Shown piece by piece: positions 35,126 to 43,612 of a stretch of DNA of 48,484 nt; within the stretch, counting starts at the first letter, position 1, and every line of letters begins with the position of its first letter. The translations under genes were made by a program, and so were the position numbers. The notes under the pieces are model-generated. The model worked only from the letters and a program-made list of their open reading frames with translations, ran no database searches and was not told the origin of the DNA. Origin of the DNA: Sphingomonadales bacterium (GTDB lineage Bacteria; Bacteroidota; Bacteroidia; UBA7662); assembly GCA_016872215.1 (NCBI GenBank), contig VHAX01000015.1, positions 1-48,484 of the forward strand, in the 5' to 3' direction.

Positions 35126-35203
35126 TGGTGGGTGATGGCGGATTCGAACCGTCGACCCCTACCCTGTCAAGGTAGTGCTCTGAACCAACTGAGCTAATCA
35201 CCC
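35126..35203 (-). tRNA. tRNA-Val (anticodon GAC)
   Basis: On the minus strand the acceptor stem GGGTGAT pairs with ATCACCC. The D-arm GCTC..GAGC, the anticodon stem CTACC/GGTAG with loop TTGACAA (anticodon GAC), and the TTCGAAT T-loop are all present. The discriminator is A and the 3' CCA is encoded (35126-35128). One T-stem position looks mismatched. It lies directly upstream of the men genes in the same direction, with no visible terminator between. Confidence 0.93.
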
Positions 35204-35257: not shown

Positions 35258-35322
35258 AAATGGCCCCAGGTCGACCGCAGCTATTCATGTTCAGAGAAAT
35301 GGCTCCAGGTCGACCGCAACTA
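35258..35322. repeat. 26-bp direct repeat spanning the end of the subtilase gene
   Basis: Two near-identical 26-bp segments, 35258-35283 and 35297-35322, start with AAATGGC and share CCAGGTCGACCGCA; they are 39 bp apart and differ at two positions. The second copy contains the stop codon of the subtilase gene, the first lies downstream of it. This looks like a short duplication of the gene's 3' end. Confidence 0.75.
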
Positions 35323-37455
35323 CTGCGGGGTGAACGAAGCATTCACATCGCCTGTGGCGATCGACTGAAGGTTCACCGTGGTGGTTTGTCCGGCCACGAG
35401 CGTCACAGACTGGGGCGCAGAGAAGACCCACGGCCCACGGGCGAAACTGCTTTGGAGCAGGGAGGCGTAGCGTTGAATCTGCAGGGCATCCGTACCATTC
35501 GTTTGACCGCTGTTGTTTACATCGCTGGCCACTAGAGGGAGTCCCGTCAGCAGGGCAACCAGCGAACCGTGCCTTGAGGCCTGCAAAGCATCGCTCGCGT
35601 TGATGCTGGCAGGAACCGGCATTCCGGTGGTGGTGATTGCATCAATCGTGTAGGTACCCGGCGGTAGGGTGAAAGAAAATTGGCCCTGTGTGTTGGTGAG
35701 GGTACTATCGACCCGAACGGAACCCTGCATGGCACGCACCCGAACCCCACGAACGGGCGACTGGGAGGTATTGACGTAACGCACCGATCCGCTTACAGTG
35801 GCATTCGGTGCGGTGAGTCCACTCACCCCACTCACAATCAGACTAAAAGCCTGCGGAGCCGTGATCGAGCCCTTGTGGGTTACCCGAACAGTATACATAC
35901 CCGCCTGTGGGAGTCCGTCGAGCAACACCTGCTCCACATTATCTCGGATGTTGTCGGCACGAGTCGCAGGCGACTGGGGTGATTGCAGGTTGAGCACCCA
36001 CGGAAGAAAGGTGCTGTTGTCGGATGAACGCACTATTCGTACGTCCAGGTCACGCACCAAACGAGGCGATGTCTGGTTCAGAACTGCGGTGTTGGGTGTT
36101 CCGGCCGGATCCGTCCAGCACAAAGTGGCCTTAAGCGGCAGGGTACTGTCGTTGTAGAACGAAAAAGTATAGGTAGCCCCATTGCTCAACGACTGCTGGA
36201 GGATCCGATGAGAAGAAGCGGCTTCTGAAATGACCCCTGCCGCACGGGCCGTGTTCATAAGTCCCCACCCAAAGGTGTAATCGGGGCCTGCACCCGGACC
36301 AACTTCATCGGCCGTGTGGACAATCAGTCCCCTCAGGGTGGCCGAACGCATCACCTGGTTGGAGTTGAGGGCTTTGTAGTGCTGCTGCAGCAGGATGGCG
36401 GATCCCGAGGCCATAGGTGAGGCCATACTAGTGCCGTTGTAGGTGTCGTAGCTGGTGTTGGAAGCAGCGGTCGACGAGTAGACCCCCACGCCTTTGGTCA
36501 CCACATCCGGCTTGATCCGCCCATCGTCGGTGGGTCCCCAGCTGTGGAAACTGCTCCCCACAACCAACGCGGCCGAGGTATAGCCCCCTGCCAGACCTTC
36601 AACTGCCCCCACGCTCAGAACATTTTTGGATACGCTGGCGTGCGACAAGCAGTCGTAGCCAGTACTGCCGCCCCCTCTTTGGCGGGTTGTCGTACTACTG
36701 GTCCAGCTGCCGGTCCATTCATAGTGGGTGGTCCCGGGTGCTGGCCCGTATCCGCGCGAGTTGCCAGCCGATTTCACGATTAAGTAGTTGGGGGCATTGA
36801 AGGCCACCTGGTCCCAGTCCGCTGATTCCTCCGAATAACGACCAAAGTTGTAATCAATTGTATCGCCAGGCGCACCATACCAGTACCAGGCATCGCTTCC
36901 GAAGTCACCATAATCACCCCACGCCCAACCGGTGACGAGCCCGTAGGAGTGGTTGGACACCAGGAGTCCCCCTGCGCCCTCCGATGCCATCTCCGCTACA
37001 TCATCGGTCCAGTCGAAGCTCCGTAGACTGGCCGAAGACGCCATTCCCCTGGCGGTCGACTGCCCCGTACCCGACCCCACCATAGTTCCACCCACGTGGG
37101 TGGCGTGGTCACTATTGGTGGTGGTGCCATCAAGTATGCTTGCACGTCCGCCGAAAGCTTGGTGACCCGTGCGCACGGCCTTGCTGTCCCAAATACCCAA
37201 GGTCATACCCTGACCGTTGAGCTGCAATCCGCTGCTGCCGCCTGTCCACACCCGATTGGTCCCGATGGTTTGTGCCCCGTTCAGGTTATGGGTGATTCGG
37301 TACACCGGCGGCAAGATGCCGTTCATCTGCTTGAATTCCGCATAAGTTGAGCCAGTCAGCACTTCCCGTTTCAATCGCAAACCGGATGGGATGCTTGTTT
37401 GGGCCATGACCGTGTTGAACAGCAACAACAGAGAGAAAAGGGTGGGGTATTTCAT
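35320..37455 (-). CDS. Secreted S8 (subtilisin-like) peptidase with C-terminal dockerin-like module
   Basis: This 711-residue extracellular serine protease has a signal peptide (MKYPTLFSLLLLFNTVMA). The catalytic triad is visible: Asp90 in LGIWDSKAV, His117 in DHATHVGGTMVG, Ser343 in NGTSMASPMASG; Asn232 (KSAGNSRG) fits the oxyanion hole. A beta-rich domain (about 415-545) follows, as in many subtilases with P/PPC-like C-terminal domains. Next comes a carboxypeptidase-regulatory-like domain (about 553-612), and then a dockerin-like module (about 615-711). That module holds NASDALQASRH, the calcium-loop motif DVNNSGQTNGTDALQIQR, and a final GDVNAS. No T9SS sorting domain is seen. It is the third gene of a three-gene operon with the cohesin protein and alpha-amylase, 56 bp after the amylase stop, so it could dock on the cohesin scaffold. 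The target protein substrate is unknown. Confidence 0.88.
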   Translation of the reverse strand: MKYPTLFSLLLLFNTVMAQTSIPSGLRLKREVLTGSTYAEFKQMNGILPPVYRITHNLNGAQTIGTNRVWTGGSSGLQLNGQGMTLGIWDSKAVRTGHQAFGGRASILDGTTTNSDHATHVGGTMVGSGTGQSTARGMASSASLRSFDWTDDVAEMASEGAGGLLVSNHSYGLVTGWAWGDYGDFGSDAWYWYGAPGDTIDYNFGRYSEESADWDQVAFNAPNYLIVKSAGNSRGYGPAPGTTHYEWTGSWTSSTTTRQRGGGSTGYDCLSHASVSKNVLSVGAVEGLAGGYTSAALVVGSSFHSWGPTDDGRIKPDVVTKGVGVYSSTAASNTSYDTYNGTSMASPMASGSAILLQQHYKALNSNQVMRSATLRGLIVHTADEVGPGAGPDYTFGWGLMNTARAAGVISEAASSHRILQQSLSNGATYTFSFYNDSTLPLKATLCWTDPAGTPNTAVLNQTSPRLVRDLDVRIVRSSDNSTFLPWVLNLQSPQSPATRADNIRDNVEQVLLDGLPQAGMYTVRVTHKGSITAPQAFSLIVSGVSGLTAPNATVSGSVRYVNTSQSPVRGVRVRAMQGSVRVDSTLTNTQGQFSFTLPPGTYTIDAITTTGMPVPASINASDALQASRHGSLVALLTGLPLVASDVNNSGQTNGTDALQIQRYASLLQSSFARGPWVFSAPQSVTLVAGQTTTVNLQSIATGDVNASFTPQ

Positions 37456-37511
37456 GGCGCATTGACTAAATATTGGAACGAATCGGATTAAAACTAAAAT
37501 ATATGCCTCGA

Positions 37512-40085
37512 CTATGGGGCAGGGGGGGGTATGTAGCTTCGGTTCACATCCCCGGCGGCCTGAGCCGTGATGTTTCTGAGCAGGGAATTACCCGCGATCA
37601 GGTTCAAGGACATTGGGAGTGCCCAAACCCAATTACCAATGCTGAAGCTGGCGTTTACCCCCGAAAAACGGCGTGAAATCTGAAGGGCATCCGTGGAGTT
37701 GATGACACCCGAGCCGTTCACATCGGCCGCGGTGAGCGATAGGCCGGTGAGGCTGTCTAGGGTCGCGAAGTGGCGGGAGACCTGTAGCGCATCTGTGGCA
37801 TTCACTCCACCCCATACAGCGGATGAGGTGGCCGTAAATGTGGTGAAGCCGGGGGGTATGCCGGCCAGAGTGTACTGACCGTTGCTACCGGCCGTGGACT
37901 GGGCTACCATTTCTCCATCCTGCCAGGTGCTCACAACCGTGCCAGCCATCGGTGTTTGAGCCGTGTTGTTGTAGTTGATCTGACCGGAAACCATTGCCGA
38001 ACCCACACAACTGCAGGCCAACCGGGCCGGAATGCTGGCCGATGTGGTCGGCGCCATATAAGTTGCCTTCACCCAGCATTTTTGTCCGGGATGTTGAGCG
38101 GTCGCGTTGCGAATCCGGATGTTGTACCATCCATCAGCCACAGGTACATAGTTCACCACCAAAGTGCCACTACCAGTGAGCGAGTCAACAATCTGGCATT
38201 GCCCGTCGAGGAGCATGATTTTCATGGCATACTGGGGAGATCCAGCGTACAATTCGAGCGTTATTGTGTCACCCGACTTCGCAAAAATGCGGCCTACCGA
38301 TCTGCAGAACAAACTATTGTCGGGCGTTCTCCCTCCTTGCTGCAGGCTCAGCACATGACTGTCGCCCAAATCATTGTCCATTTCCCATTCCTGAGATACC
38401 CGCCGTGCATTCCTAACATAATTAGCAGAGATTCCGGTCGGTGCCCACACGCCATAACCGCGGCGACCGGAAGGAGCGGTTCCGTTGCAGGGCGGAATCA
38501 TAAGATCCACTTTTCCCCCGCCGTATACGGTACTTGTAGTGGTTACCGCCCCGGAATAATCAGCCAATACCGTTCCATCGGGCCAATTGGTCTGCACTGC
38601 GGTGAGGTTCTGCCAGGTACTCCACTGATCGTTGACCGCAATCAAGGCCTTTCCGCTCCGCTCGATCACGAGGGCATCGGCGGCCTGCCAACGCACATTG
38701 TAGGCGCCTTCCTTAAAACGAAGGTTTTGGTGGCACCAAATAAGGTTGGCGATGTCGCTGCGCACGGGCAGGGTCGATGCCACCTTCGGGTTGTGGTTGT
38801 AGCGGTTTCCGTTGTAGCCTATATTGAATAAGTCCTCGAAAAACACCTGTGGACTCCCGTCAACGGCCATGATGATGGCGTAGACAACCGATAAACGTCC
38901 GTCGTTGGGTTCGATGTGTGTGCCCAGCTGCTGTCCGGTGTTCCAACCAGTATAGTTTCCCGAGGCGTTCAGTTGCGGTCGAAATGTATCGTGGTTGTTC
39001 ACAAACGGCACCGTTCTCTGCCGGTTGCTCTGCTGATAGCCCGGTACGCTACCCAAATTGAAACCGCCCCCACCCTGTACGACACCGATCAGCGCATTCC
39101 GGAGCGCGAAATCGAATGTGCCCGAACGGTTTTGCACCGAATTCACCCAATTGTCGAGATCCGAGGCCCCGCCAACCCATTCCCCCACTGCGTACATGCT
39201 GTTGGAACCGCTGGCCCAACCCGCATTGTTCTGCAGATTCCACAGAATGTCCTCGGTCACAGCCGAAGGAAAATGCTTCACGGCATCGAGGCGAACGCCA
39301 TCCCAACCCATCTGTTTTTTGTACCATATCATCCAGCTGCGCATCTCATTGCGCATATAGGAGGTGGATTGCGTTGGATTAAAGGTTGCATTGCTGCTTT
39401 GGCCGAAACCATTCGACTCAAAACTGATGTCGGGACCCCAATAGGGTGAGTTGATGTCGTTGGTGCAACAAGCATTGCCTGGATTGGGGTAGAAATTCTG
39501 CCAGTTTTTGGAAAACCGTCCGTTTCGATTTAGGTAATTCGCCGCACTTTCATCTGTTGCGGGACGGGTGAAGCTGACGTACCGAAAATTCTTATAGCGA
39601 TTCGTGGCCCCGTCATCCAAGGCCGCCGGATCCTGTCCACCTGCGCCTGTGTTACTCCCTGCACTTGCCACATGGTTAAGAACGATGTCCTGGATCACAT
39701 CCAATCCGTTGGCCTTCATCATAGCCACCATCCGCAAAACCTCATCTTTGTCGCCTACCCGGGTTTTCAGTGCCCCCTTCTGGTATTTGTCGCCCAAGTC
39801 ATAGTGGTCGAAGGGCGCATAGCCGACCGAGTTCGTGCTGGAATTCTTCATTGTCACAGGCACCCAGACCGCATCGATTCCCAACTCATTCAGTCGGGGT
39901 GCCAGATCTGCAAGGTAGGACGACCAGGCATTGGGGTACAAGCTGTTCCAGTAGTCCCACCAAAACCCCTGCAACACCACCTGCCGACTCGGCGGATTCA
40001 GCGCCTGTGCAGTGACACTTGGGCCGAACAACAGCAGGCCGCCGACCAATATCCCGTTGATACAAAGTGTCACAATACGCTTCAT
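37512..40085 (-). CDS. Secreted GH13 alpha-amylase with C-terminal dockerin-like module
   Basis: This endo-acting starch hydrolase has 857 residues. After a signal peptide (MKRIVTLCINGILVGG..) comes the (beta/alpha)8 domain with all four GH13 regions: DVIQDIVLNH, GWDGVRLDAVKH (nucleophile Asp267), AVGEWVGG (acid/base Glu302) and FVNNHDTF (Asp366). A C-terminal beta domain ending RRGYGVWAPTG follows, then a beta-sandwich (about 590-685), a carboxypeptidase-regulatory-like domain (about 698-755) and a dockerin-like module (about 758-853). The module has WGGVNATDALQVSRHF, the calcium loop DVNGSGVINSTDALQISRRF and GDVNRSYIP. ATG 40085 gives the signal peptide; it is 13 bp after the cohesin-gene stop. 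No T9SS domain is seen. Gene order suggests the enzyme is displayed on the neighbouring cohesin protein. Confidence 0.92.
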   Translation of the reverse strand: MKRIVTLCINGILVGGLLLFGPSVTAQALNPPSRQVVLQGFWWDYWNSLYPNAWSSYLADLAPRLNELGIDAVWVPVTMKNSSTNSVGYAPFDHYDLGDKYQKGALKTRVGDKDEVLRMVAMMKANGLDVIQDIVLNHVASAGSNTGAGGQDPAALDDGATNRYKNFRYVSFTRPATDESAANYLNRNGRFSKNWQNFYPNPGNACCTNDINSPYWGPDISFESNGFGQSSNATFNPTQSTSYMRNEMRSWMIWYKKQMGWDGVRLDAVKHFPSAVTEDILWNLQNNAGWASGSNSMYAVGEWVGGASDLDNWVNSVQNRSGTFDFALRNALIGVVQGGGGFNLGSVPGYQQSNRQRTVPFVNNHDTFRPQLNASGNYTGWNTGQQLGTHIEPNDGRLSVVYAIIMAVDGSPQVFFEDLFNIGYNGNRYNHNPKVASTLPVRSDIANLIWCHQNLRFKEGAYNVRWQAADALVIERSGKALIAVNDQWSTWQNLTAVQTNWPDGTVLADYSGAVTTTSTVYGGGKVDLMIPPCNGTAPSGRRGYGVWAPTGISANYVRNARRVSQEWEMDNDLGDSHVLSLQQGGRTPDNSLFCRSVGRIFAKSGDTITLELYAGSPQYAMKIMLLDGQCQIVDSLTGSGTLVVNYVPVADGWYNIRIRNATAQHPGQKCWVKATYMAPTTSASIPARLACSCVGSAMVSGQINYNNTAQTPMAGTVVSTWQDGEMVAQSTAGSNGQYTLAGIPPGFTTFTATSSAVWGGVNATDALQVSRHFATLDSLTGLSLTAADVNGSGVINSTDALQISRRFSGVNASFSIGNWVWALPMSLNLIAGNSLLRNITAQAAGDVNRSYIPPPAP

Positions 40086-40098
40086 CGAAAATAATGTC

Positions 40099-42537
40099 TC
40101 AAGGCAAAGATTCAAATGAATTATTTCTTTTGCTGTTATTATATATCATGTACGAAATATTTATTCTATGATTGAACAACCCGGAAGAGTTGCCAAATAA
40201 CAAAATTCCGGCATTTTGGTTTGGAACGTTCACCACCGTTCGCAGGTTTAGGGACGGAAAATAACTGCCGTTCACATCTCCATAACACAATACGCCCAGT
40301 GAAAGGGTGTCACGGGTTCCGCTGCCGCCAAGGCTGATGGTATCCACAGCCAGAGCCCAATCCCCAACGCTGAAATTGCTCGTAATGACCGCGAAGCGCC
40401 GCGATATGTTCAAGGCATCCGTCGAGTTCAACAACCCACTTCCATTCACATCCGCAGCCTTGTAGTTGAGTCCCGTAAGCACCAGCAGATTGGTGAAATG
40501 CCGCGAAACCAGCAGTGCATCCGTGGCATTCACCCCCCCCCATGGTTTGGAGGTTTGTATGCTTAAGGTGTAGAGGCCAGGGTCGGTCTGGGGGATGTCG
40601 AACTCACCGGTCGACTGCACCGCCGCAGTGTACCTCAATTGTTGTCCCTGCCACAACTGAAGCGTAGTATTGGTCATCGGCGTCTGCCCTGAATTGAGAT
40701 ACCGGACTTGTCCACCCAATCCCCCGCACGTCTGTGCGGTAAACGAGCCGGCTGTTAGGACGGGACAAGCATACACGTTGCCAACACTGTCGGCGAGTTC
40801 GGTAAGTGACGGCACCCAGGCAATTTGCCCAGTACCAACGGAACGCACCCTAAATCGCAACTGGAACAGAACCGTAGTCGGCGCCGCGGGTATAAACGAA
40901 GCGACGTTGTACCATGCGAGATAAAATCTGTTTTGATTGTTGTTGGTGATCAAAGTGGCTCCCTGAAGCTGTGGTTGCACATCTTGTATCGAGAGATACG
41001 ACAGTCGGGCGGTGTCGTACTGCAGTACCATCGATAAAGCACCAAAGTGGCTCACGTTCGAAACAAGTACCGGCACCAGCACGTCTGACTGCGCGCAAAA
41101 TGCCGGCATATTGAGGATCAAACTCGGGGGCGCAATTGGCATCACTACATATACACTATCTGTGACCCTGCAAGCACCTTGAGCGAGGGCACAGACATAC
41201 CAACCCGTACCGGTAACCTGAACGACCCGGGTCGAATCGCCCGTACTCCACATATAGGTATAGGGGCCAACGGGGGCCGACAGGCTAAAACAACTCCCAG
41301 TTGGTCGAAGGGTATCTACAGCGAAGACTACCGGATTGATGACCGTTGCCGCAACCTGTCCGTTTCCAAAAAGCACGGACATAACATCCCCAGCACTATT
41401 GGCCAATTCACAGCCACTTTGACTGGTATCCAATTGTAGGTTTGCGCTGCCCATTACCCGAAAGCGGTAGTACACCAGCGGTCCCTGAGGAAGGGTGATG
41501 GGAGCCACAGAAAACCACGCTAAATAGACGGCTTGTCCACCCACCGGGGCATTAATGATGAGATTTGAAGTGTTCAATCCGGGTAACACATCCTGAAAAT
41601 CGATAAACTGCAGTTGCTGGCCCGGAAAGCGGAGGGTGAGCGACACGGCCGATACGTCCGCTATGGCCACTGATGCGTTGACCGGCACGCGTATTGTGTC
41701 ACCCAAACAAGCCACAAGGTTTCCTGCACTGATTTGGGGGAAATTTCCCGTCACAGTGAGGGTAGCGGTACTACTAAAGGTCGTTTGACCACACCGATTG
41801 ACAGCCCTCAACCGATAGACCACACCATTCAGGCTGAGGGGGGCTCCTGTGATGCTAAGTTGTGGTGTTGCCACACCCTGATAAATTGTGCCGTTCTGCA
41901 GGTCGACCCAGCCGGAACCCGACGACCGCTGCCAGCGGTACACATCGGCTCTTAAGGCCTGGGCTGCAATACTCGTGGAGCCCCAGATGGGAATCGCGAC
42001 AGCAGTAGGCGGCTGTAGAGTGAAGGTTGGGATCTGCAAAAGGGTGACGCCTCCGTTGGTATAGGCCACTTGTGGAATCACATCGCCTGCACCATCTGCA
42101 ATTTCGCAAACGAATGTATTGAATACCAGACTTCCTGGTGCTATTAACACAAATTTCAGCTGCATAAGGGTCGATCCGGCCTGAAGCGTTGTGGGCTGTA
42201 TGTTCCACCAAGCTATATACAGGGATCCCCCGGGCGCCGGTGCGTTGTCTATGGTTTGTCCCGCCCCTGGCAAAATATTGTTTTCCAACCCCACATACCG
42301 CAATCCCGCAGCGGGATAATCGATCTGCAATGAGATGGCTGCAATGTTACCTGCGGTCGTCAGGGCTTGAAGGGGCATCCGAACCGTATCGCCGACGCAG
42401 GCCTGCATTTGTCCGAGTCCGAGCGAAACCGCCTGAGCACTGTATTTCCCGAAAATAATGCACAACAATACCAGGAATACTTTGCTTACCGCTCTTAAAG
42501 ACGGCATTCTGAAAGACGGCATTCTGAAAGACGGCAT
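40099..42537 (-). CDS. Secreted scaffold-like protein with three cohesin-like domains and a dockerin-like module
   Basis: An 812-residue exported protein. After a signal peptide come cohesin-like domains 1 (about 36-168), 2 (267-401) and 3 (471-605). Each shows the same marks: GDTVRMPL-type first strand, AAISLQIDYPA-type strand, LYIAWWN/VYLAWFS/FYLAWYN, and a late E(L/I)A-x-(S/G)-x-G-(D/N)-V strand. Ig-like domains separate them (about 169-263 and 402-468). A carboxypeptidase-like domain (608-663) and a dockerin-like module (666-760; DVNGSGLLNSTDALNISRRF, GDVNGSYFP) follow, with a 50-residue tail unlike its partners. The protein therefore has both receptor-like and ligand-like modules, as adaptor scaffoldins do. 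It is the first gene of the amylase-protease operon, with a good promoter upstream. The start lies in a 15-bp repeat that offers three possible ATGs. Cohesin assignment is by pattern; binding is inferred. Confidence 0.85.
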   Translation of the reverse strand: MPSFRMPSFRMPSLRAVSKVFLVLLCIIFGKYSAQAVSLGLGQMQACVGDTVRMPLQALTTAGNIAAISLQIDYPAAGLRYVGLENNILPGAGQTIDNAPAPGGSLYIAWWNIQPTTLQAGSTLMQLKFVLIAPGSLVFNTFVCEIADGAGDVIPQVAYTNGGVTLLQIPTFTLQPPTAVAIPIWGSTSIAAQALRADVYRWQRSSGSGWVDLQNGTIYQGVATPQLSITGAPLSLNGVVYRLRAVNRCGQTTFSSTATLTVTGNFPQISAGNLVACLGDTIRVPVNASVAIADVSAVSLTLRFPGQQLQFIDFQDVLPGLNTSNLIINAPVGGQAVYLAWFSVAPITLPQGPLVYYRFRVMGSANLQLDTSQSGCELANSAGDVMSVLFGNGQVAATVINPVVFAVDTLRPTGSCFSLSAPVGPYTYMWSTGDSTRVVQVTGTGWYVCALAQGACRVTDSVYVVMPIAPPSLILNMPAFCAQSDVLVPVLVSNVSHFGALSMVLQYDTARLSYLSIQDVQPQLQGATLITNNNQNRFYLAWYNVASFIPAAPTTVLFQLRFRVRSVGTGQIAWVPSLTELADSVGNVYACPVLTAGSFTAQTCGGLGGQVRYLNSGQTPMTNTTLQLWQGQQLRYTAAVQSTGEFDIPQTDPGLYTLSIQTSKPWGGVNATDALLVSRHFTNLLVLTGLNYKAADVNGSGLLNSTDALNISRRFAVITSNFSVGDWALAVDTISLGGSGTRDTLSLGVLCYGDVNGSYFPSLNLRTVVNVPNQNAGILLFGNSSGLFNHRINISYMIYNNSKRNNSFESLP
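42500..42537. repeat. 15-bp tandem repeat containing three possible start codons
   Basis: The unit GACGGCATTCTGAAA occurs at 42500 and 42515, and its first half again at 42530. On the minus strand it encodes MPSFR-MPSFR-MPSLR, so ATG occurs at 42537, 42522 and 42507, all in frame with the cohesin protein. Gain or loss of a unit would change the length of the signal-peptide n-region by five residues. Confidence 0.85.
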
Positions 42538-42561: not shown

Positions 42562-42589
42562 CAAAAATAAGGGAAAAAAGAGGTGCAAA
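42562..42589 (-). promoter_or_regulatory. Bacteroidota-type promoter of the cohesin-amylase-subtilase operon
   Basis: On the minus strand TTTG (42586-42589) is followed 16 nt later by TATTTTTG (42562-42569), a -33/-7 pair of the Bacteroidota primary sigma type with the same spacing as the exopolysaccharide promoter. The -7 box ends 24 nt before the first ATG. No operator-like palindrome is obvious. Confidence 0.6.
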
Positions 42590-42638
42590 CCGCCTGCAAA
42601 CGCAAAAATCGCAAGCATGTCTCTGCAAACATTTTTTC

Positions 42639-42654: not shown

Positions 42655-42729
42655 GGGCGCATAGCTCAGCCGGTTCAGAGCATCTGCCTTACAAGCAGAG
42701 GGTCCGCGGTTCGAATCCGTGTGCGCCCA
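42655..42729 (+). tRNA. tRNA-Val (anticodon TAC)
   Basis: Acceptor GGGCGCA pairs with TGCGCCC. The D-arm GCTC..GAGC, the anticodon stem TCTGC/GCAGA with loop CTTACAA (anticodon TAC), and a T-arm with TTCGAAT are all present. The discriminator base is A; CCA is not encoded in full. It is followed by an intrinsic terminator and by degraded gene fragments. Confidence 0.95.
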
Positions 42730-42740
42730 CTTAATAATCA

Positions 42741-42940: not shown

Positions 42941-43612
42941 TCAATCCCTGACGCTGCGAACCGAAAAATCATAACGGTGGGAGTTGAAGTAGCGGTACAC
43001 ATTCGCAGGGTCGTTGCTCAAGGTGCGGTTCCAGGCAGTGCCCGACCCAGCATCCGAAGAACTCCACCAGTACCCGTTGCTGCCCAAATCGTTGAACCCG
43101 CCACCAGAGTAGCGGTGCCACCAGGCAGACCCGTGAAGCCGCTCGAGTTCGTGGCTCCTGTGTTCGGGGAAGTCCAGCCTCCCGAAGTGGGTTGCGTGGC
43201 TGTGCTCTTCATCTTGCCCCCTGCTACACTACTAGACCAAACAATTCCCACAAACCGTGTCAGCATTCGGGTCATGATACTTAACTAATCTATTCCACTC
43301 CGCATCTGATGGTACATGCCAGCCCGTAGGACATAGTCCCCTTGAATCAGTTGCCGAATACCAATTGTAGAGCTTGCCGTAGAGAGCGTCGTTTGCTGCA
43401 TCGTTGTTGTAAATGGCATACGCCCCTGATGTGGCGGAACCCCATTGTGCATCTGATAGTCCCGTGGGAATATTGTTGCCATTCCTATAATTAGTCACCT
43501 TTAAGTTACTCTGGGTCCAACACTGTGTGGCAATCTTTACTGTGTTGTAGCTGTTGCCGTCCACATCCATTATTGTTTTTCCGCAACTCATTATGGTTAG
43601 CTCCGCGTACAA
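42941..43612 (-). pseudogene. Degraded FISUMP-domain protein gene
   Basis: A FISUMP (Fibrobacter succinogenes major paralogous domain) protein, normally a secreted or surface lipoprotein of unknown role, is present in broken form. The first part (43232-43612) reads DVDGNSYNTVKIATQCWTQSN, LYNWYSATDSRGLCPTGWHV and PSDAEWNRLV, then hits a TAG. The next part (ending near 43140) continues in another frame with SSSVAGGKMKST and GATNSSGFTGLPGG. A third part in a further frame gives FNDLGSNGYWWSSSDAGS, NVYRYFNSHRYDFSVRSVRD and a stop at 42941. At least two frameshifts are needed. The N-terminus has no signal peptide and seems lost. It lies head-to-head with another gene fragment. Confidence 0.8.

Follow-up and report, generated by a model that had tools for sequence, protein, structure and literature searches.

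A cohesin scaffold with dockerin-tailed amylase and subtilase points to a cellulosome-like organisation for starch and protein in a freshwater Bacteroidota bacterium

Results

A three-gene cluster encodes a scaffold, an amylase and a subtilase

The DNA analysed here, a stretch of 48,484 nucleotides that we refer to as the window, comes from an uncultured freshwater Bacteroidota bacterium whose genome assembly (G000) comprises 2.09 Mb and is 99% complete. Three genes on its minus strand encode, in order, a scaffold protein (40099..42537), a GH13 alpha-amylase (37512..40085) and an S8 subtilase (35320..37455), with intergenic gaps of 13 bp between scaffold and amylase and 56 bp between amylase and subtilase. 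The scaffold starts at an ATG at 42537, in a reading frame that itself opens at 42618, and consists of a signal peptide, three cohesins with Ig-like spacers and a C-terminal X-dockerin, without a T9SS tail. The amylase (ATG at 40085; Pfam Alpha-amylase, E 3.5e-10; PRK09441-type amylase, 216 bits) and the subtilase (Pfam Peptidase_S8, E 1e-25) each carry an X-dockerin at their end. When inspected by eye, all three N-termini resembled signal peptides and none showed a lipobox, for which reason lipoprotein anchoring of the three proteins was rejected. Upstream, 24 bp 5' of the scaffold ATG, we found a candidate promoter, TTTG-N16-TATTTTTG (42562..42589, minus strand), matching the Bacteroidetes-type consensus, of which the window holds three matches against 0.7 expected. 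The layout given by the initial annotation, including coordinates, strand, both gaps and a promoter ahead of the trio, was therefore recovered on re-examination, the promoter as a candidate.

The trio is flanked on both sides by tRNA-Val genes (GAC and TAC anticodons), at 35126-35203 on the minus strand and 42655-42730 on the plus strand, and the operon possibly occupies an insertion site bounded by tRNA genes. Further out lies a broken FISUMP (PF09603) gene (42960-43612, minus strand), the first part of which matches the domain before the frame is lost.

The scaffold carries three cohesins

The Pfam Cohesin profile matched the scaffold with an E-value of 3.6e-11 (43.8 bits; cut-off 24.1), and a profile built from cohesins of the same genome placed three such domains along the protein, all encoded on the minus strand. 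Cohesin 1 (residues 65-196; 42031..42426) was recognised by the own-genome profile at E 4e-39, and cohesin 2 (residues 295-427; 41338..41736) by the same profile together with a phmmer match to the A. fulgidus cohesin 2xdh (E 0.015); judged by sequence, both are cohesins. In the case of cohesin 3 (residues 499-631; 40726..41124), which was matched by Pfam, structure prediction gave an AlphaFold2 model with a mean pLDDT of 91.9. All 50 of the PDB matches listed for this model are cohesins or complexes that contain one, with TM scores of 0.60-0.83 and a best E-value of 2.5e-10, some of them solved with dockerins, so that cohesin 3 is predicted to adopt the nine-stranded cohesin sandwich and an unrelated beta-sandwich was rejected for this domain. 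A search of the scaffold with Pfam returned no match to a substrate-binding module or CBM.

All three proteins share an X-dockerin module

The module at or near the end of all three trio proteins (X-dockerin, XDoc) consists of an X module of CarboxypepD_reg/CnaB-like type, followed by a dockerin and ending in GDVNxSY. It occupies residues 630-791 of the scaffold (40246..40731, minus strand; Dockerin_1 E 6.9e-7, XDoc profile E 1e-65) and residues 705-866 of the amylase (37518..38003, minus strand; Dockerin_1 E 1.6e-9), where orthologs have their T9SS tail. The subtilase module (residues 550-711; 35323..35808, minus strand) scored 18.7 bits against Dockerin_1, under the Pfam cut-off of 22.9, and E 6e-54 against the XDoc profile, which includes the subtilase itself. 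With these matches, the three cohesins and dockerin initially described for the first gene, and the same dockerin-like ending on the amylase and the S8 peptidase, were all borne out.

At the sequence level, the XDoc profile matched solved dockerins in the PDB with E-values of 1.7e-6 to 1e-5. The AlphaFold2 model of the module was poor (pLDDT 71); the X half was similar to CnaB and transthyretin-like domains, and clostridial X-dockerins were matched only weakly. All 18 Dockerin_1 matches in the genome start at profile position 8-11, and the first calcium loop lacks ligands 1, 3 and 5 in 54 of the 69 modules examined, while loop 2 is complete. A GDxNxS segment follows loop 2 by ~44 residues in 65 of the 69 and could complete loop 1; the XDoc model is of too low confidence to settle the geometry of the calcium site. 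This pattern suggests a permuted first EF-hand loop that is completed by the C-terminus; a literature search for permuted dockerins yielded no relevant title. In two genomes of the sample (L195 in G004, L196 in G012), the XDoc of an S8 protease is split by ~130 residues ahead of its closing GDVDGS.

Between sister species, XDocs keep 75-88% identity, with dN/dS of ~0.05-0.10 where dS is measurable, compared with 0.02-0.03 for the catalytic domains and 0.07-0.08 for two scaffold cohesins, all of them rough ratios given that synonymous sites are near saturation. Conservation is lost in the 48 residues that follow the XDoc at the end of the scaffold (27% identity between sister species). Since sister species have the same ends, chance or frameshifted C-termini in the trio were rejected.

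The X-dockerin replaces a T9SS tail on both enzymes

Comparison with orthologs showed that the X-dockerin takes the place of a T9SS C-terminal sorting domain (CTD). A T9SS type A tail closes 72 of the 80 amylase orthologs compared; in five an XDoc occupies the same position, no ortholog carries both, and the remaining three are truncated or have a broken frame, two of them with the start of a CTD still visible. The five XDoc amylases come from metagenome-assembled genomes of the window's family (L095-L099, matching G002, G003, G001, G009 and G007, respectively). In a maximum-likelihood tree they lie among the CTD amylases, and their closest CTD relative (L100, apparently from G010) belongs to the same family, implying one or two replacements. 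The subtilase behaves likewise: in four congeneric genomes and in two from a second genus it has an XDoc but lacks a CTD, and in four relatives of other families, these being the ones with a readable C-terminus, it has a CTD. On the amylase and the subtilase, then, the dockerin replaces the T9SS tail.

Cohesins and X-dockerins are spread across the genome

Genome-wide profile searches of G000 identified 18 XDocs, at least 22 cohesins (22 by the scaffold's profile, 24 by the one built from the genome itself) and 52 T9SS type A tails (E up to 1e-3), as well as SprA (2507 bits), which shows that a T9SS is present. The cohesin count is a lower bound, because contigs C23 and C21 start inside frames homologous to cohesin arrays of a congeneric genome, G001 (~47% and ~38% identity). 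Ten of the 18 XDoc proteins have the order body-XDoc-cohesin-CTD, so that every XDoc protein with a CTD (10/10) has a cohesin between the two. In the other eight, trio included, neither cohesin nor CTD was detected after the XDoc; one of these runs off its contig (C2). The XDoc forms the protein end in four cases, the three trio proteins and a C29-encoded M43 peptidase. In another four, the C2 protein among them, it lies near the N-terminus or centrally before FISUMP-type domains (Pfam-tested for two), with no CTD detected; such XDoc-FISUMP proteins without a detected CTD are encoded at L065:2583-5660 and L069:2188-6243, and probably in L063 and L068, and are possibly a second class of dockerin clients. 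Cohesins also occur in proteins without an XDoc, namely a 3xCoh-CTD protein (C16), a two-cohesin protein (C11) and a type B CTD protein (C19).

Several XDoc proteins have domains that relate to starch or protein. One on C18 carries ~6 tandem CBM48-like domains, another on C3, of the XDoc-Coh-CTD type, combines an esterase-like domain with CBM20/CBM48, and further XDoc proteins include one more S8 and two M43 peptidases. As starch-binding and peptidase XDoc proteins are thus found elsewhere, starch and protein are the theme of the whole system, beyond the trio. The only SusC/SusD pair of the genome is divergent to the C3 XDoc protein (C3:74527-82815; L279, L066), and a second GH13 gene, with a T9SS-like tail of its own, lies ~8 kb from this locus.

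These counts bear on three statements of the initial annotation. Its description of the system as small, and by implication confined to the trio, does not survive the finding of 18 XDocs and at least 22 cohesins across the genome. Its remark that SusC/SusD genes are absent nearby is correct within the window, where none adjoins the trio amylase, and has to be qualified for the genome, whose only SusD, with its SusC, is on another contig. Finally, it had named as a refuting result the presence of the module on most secreted proteins as a plain sorting signal; this is not what the genome shows, since 18 XDocs stand against 52 T9SS tails, and 10 of them coexist with such a tail.

Cohesin genes adjoin dockerin-tailed enzymes in related genomes

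A search of relatives, likewise proposed at the outset, recovered the full trio in a sister species (L095/G002) and adjacency of cohesin and enzyme genes in further genera. In G009 and G007, of another genus, the gene following the XDoc amylase encodes two or more cohesins, and in G006 and G010, of a third genus, an S8 protease is clustered with cohesin genes, one of which encodes 5xCoh-XDoc-Coh-CTD (G006). Cohesin genes therefore adjoin the XDoc amylase in two genera and an S8 protease in two genera. In G258, which belongs to a different class, two XDoc-tailed proteins without a CTD are encoded beside a Coh...CTD gene. In another sister species, G003 (L096/L182), no cohesin gene adjoins the amylase-subtilase pair. 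Within the second genus we also observed a 460-aa XDoc-Coh-CTD gene beside a 2xCoh gene of ~700 aa in seven loci (L175-L181; G004, G009, G011, G012 and G014-G016), two of them (L178, L181) cut by a contig edge or stretch end; by eye, the pair adjoins an apparent E2-type acyltransferase gene.

Very large arrays were found in G001, of the same genus, where two open frames, at least 5272 and 5737 aa long (L214, L215; contigs C15, C10) and both running off their contigs, contain 18 and 20 cohesins. The longer ends in XDoc-Coh-CTD and the other is cut just past its XDoc. Repeats of this kind are a probable cause of assembly breaks in this family.

Among 345 genomes drawn evenly from the phylum, 41 had XDoc-like modules. 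Cohesins were detected in 24 of 40 XDoc-positive genomes (G000 left out) and in none of the 20 XDoc-negative genomes searched, which all belong to the window's class, a co-occurrence that is partly driven by XDoc-Coh fusions. Fifteen XDoc-positive genomes without cohesin belong to one family (f65) and have weaker XDoc-like ends, GDVDGSW, from which it follows that the module can exist without a partner. GDVDGSW or GDVNGSW C-termini were seen on large proteins with cohesin undetected at L239, L241, L243-L245, L251-L253 and L255, mostly in f65.

Discussion

Taken together, these data make it probable that the trio supplies three components of a T9SS-anchored, cell-surface cellulosome-like complex for starch and protein, in which the XDocs dock in the scaffold or in other cohesins. 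We infer that cohesins and dockerins bind one another. The amylase and subtilase, carrying an X-dockerin where other Bacteroidota have a T9SS CTD, would plug into one of the three co-encoded scaffold cohesins or into multi-cohesin proteins encoded elsewhere in the genome, and the tail-less scaffold would hook by its own XDoc onto cohesins of T9SS-anchored proteins. Candidates for such anchored partners are the 3xCoh-CTD protein on C16, the XDoc-Coh-CTD proteins and the large arrays whose ends lie on C21 and C23. Dockerin-tailed clients are thus most likely held at the surface by scaffold cohesins and T9SS-anchored cohesin proteins.

Clients without a CTD would also have to cross the outer membrane, for which no route is known, a point against the complex. 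One scheme would have the tail-less amylase, subtilase and scaffold bind the cohesin of a CTD partner in the periplasm and leave with it through SprA as a complex, the module being a permuted dockerin whose loop 1 is completed by the C-terminal GDVNxSY; in this specific form we regard it as unlikely.

Some observations count against a complex. CTD-bearing XDocs mostly stand in cis with a cohesin, and such a pair could be an intramolecular unit; in addition, the XDoc model is poor, loop 1 is incomplete at its usual place, G003 lacks a cohesin neighbour, f65 has the module without detectable cohesins, and no substrate-binding module was detected on the scaffold. Were XDoc and cohesin-like domain a unit within one chain ahead of the T9SS tail, the XDocs of the trio would be leftovers or stabilising caps and no complexes in trans would form. 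The 10 of 18 XDocs directly followed by a cohesin fit this idea, as do the recurrence of the XDoc-Coh-CTD order in other classes of the phylum and the occurrence of cohesins outside cellulosomes (A. fulgidus 2xdh is among the matches listed). We nevertheless consider it improbable, since XDocs with no cohesin after them are still conserved between sister species (75-88% identity, dN/dS ~0.05-0.10), take over from the T9SS tail at a constant position and adjoin multi-cohesin genes that lack an XDoc in cis, and since arrays of 18-20 cohesins have a single XDoc each.

Still less probable is a role for the XDoc in C-terminal sorting, as a T9SS tail variant or another export tag, in place of docking. 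Its exact placement at the T9SS tail position of orthologs, the 27.0 bits that the subtilase X module scores against TIGR04183 (cut-off 23) and the XDoc-like C-termini of f65, where cohesins were not detected, would all agree with such a role. Sorting signals of the T9SS-tail kind are C-terminal, however, and 10 proteins have a genuine CTD downstream of an internal XDoc, and four place the XDoc N-terminally or centrally ahead of other domains, while its dockerin part matches PDB dockerins. With 14 of 18 XDocs not C-terminal, 10 of those being followed by a CTD, a plain sorting signal was rejected as the main reading. Equally hard to credit, and if anything a shade more so, is the notion that the enzymes with a dockerin tail are released or remain in the periplasm, and that the cohesin proteins act as adhesins towards another target, the genes being neighbours for historical reasons. 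Although the cohesin genes of G000 carry many Ig-like repeats typical of adhesins, and the G003 enzymes have no cohesin gene alongside, cohesin genes adjoin the XDoc amylase and S8 proteases in varied orders in several genera, and orthologs of both enzymes bear T9SS tails.

A surface complex therefore remains our preferred reading, and a cellulosome-like organisation for starch and protein, the central proposal of the initial annotation, is well supported by the cohesin fold, the tail replacement, the gene neighbourhoods and the starch-binding and protease XDoc proteins; the part of that proposal which did not stand is a small trio on its own, and the absence of an adjoining cohesin gene in G003 weighs on the other side.

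The glycan breakdown for which Bacteroidota are best known relies on SusCD loci and T9SS enzymes. The small freshwater genome described here has one SusC/SusD pair and, layered on its T9SS, a set of cohesins and dockerins, and the clean swap of tails makes it testable whether dockerins act as a sorting tail and how tail-less proteins reach the surface. The trio is not a SusCD-type starch utilisation locus, as no SusC/SusD lies beside its amylase. Nor is it a cellulosome in the strict sense of plant cell-wall enzymes with a scaffoldin CBM, its enzymes being GH13 and S8 and its scaffold having no CBM match. A multi-cohesin scaffoldin (three cohesins here, 18 and 20 in G001) and dockerin-tailed catalytic subunits are both present. 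Searches of the open-access literature turned up no Bacteroidota system in which a cohesin scaffold is described together with dockerin-tailed enzymes.

Like clostridial cellulosomes with a type II X-dockerin, the system combines a multi-cohesin scaffoldin, dockerin-tailed enzymes, a scaffoldin X-dockerin for anchoring and the cohesin fold; unlike them, the trio has no cellulases, its scaffold lacks a CBM, anchoring would be through T9SS proteins as opposed to SLH domains, and loop 1 is incomplete at its usual place. Ruminococcus bromii is a Gram-positive gut bacterium that is not known to have a T9SS. Its amylosome assembles on the cell surface from cohesins and dockerins to act on starch, and its starch-active proteins include Sas20 (PMC9112005). 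Both systems place dockerins on an amylase and on starch-binding proteins (here tandem CBM48-XDoc and CBM20/48-XDoc) and have a cohesin scaffold, but the present set includes proteases, and the likeness is one of function only. In rumen Bacteroidetes, dockerins occur on glycoside hydrolases (PMC6071333, PMC7480376); rows for camel rumen bins in the first of these, such as Bin49 with 11 dockerins, list no cohesins, and the relevant passage of the second calls the role of dockerins in such loci undefined. In contrast to what these excerpts describe, cohesins here are abundant and adjoin the dockerin genes.

The nearest described system is the complex predicted for Ca. Stygibacter (Cloacimonadota) from Ace Lake, the account of which refers as well to a 'planctosome' of freshwater Planctomycetes (PMC8542988). 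Its passages on the complex describe dockerin-tailed GH18, GH57, S8 and C25 enzymes and a cohesin scaffoldin of 3,755 aa whose C-terminal domain would attach it to the cell surface, with starch, chitin and protein as proposed substrates (PMC8542988). Compared by description, the two differ in phylum, in the amylase (GH13 here, GH57 there) and in the CBM2/CBM3 of the Stygibacter scaffoldin, and the same passages report no X module, split calcium loop, XDoc-Coh-CTD order or tail replacement. What these passages and our data have in common are C-terminal dockerins on an amylase and an S8 peptidase, a cohesin scaffoldin, starch and protein as substrates, and a lake habitat.
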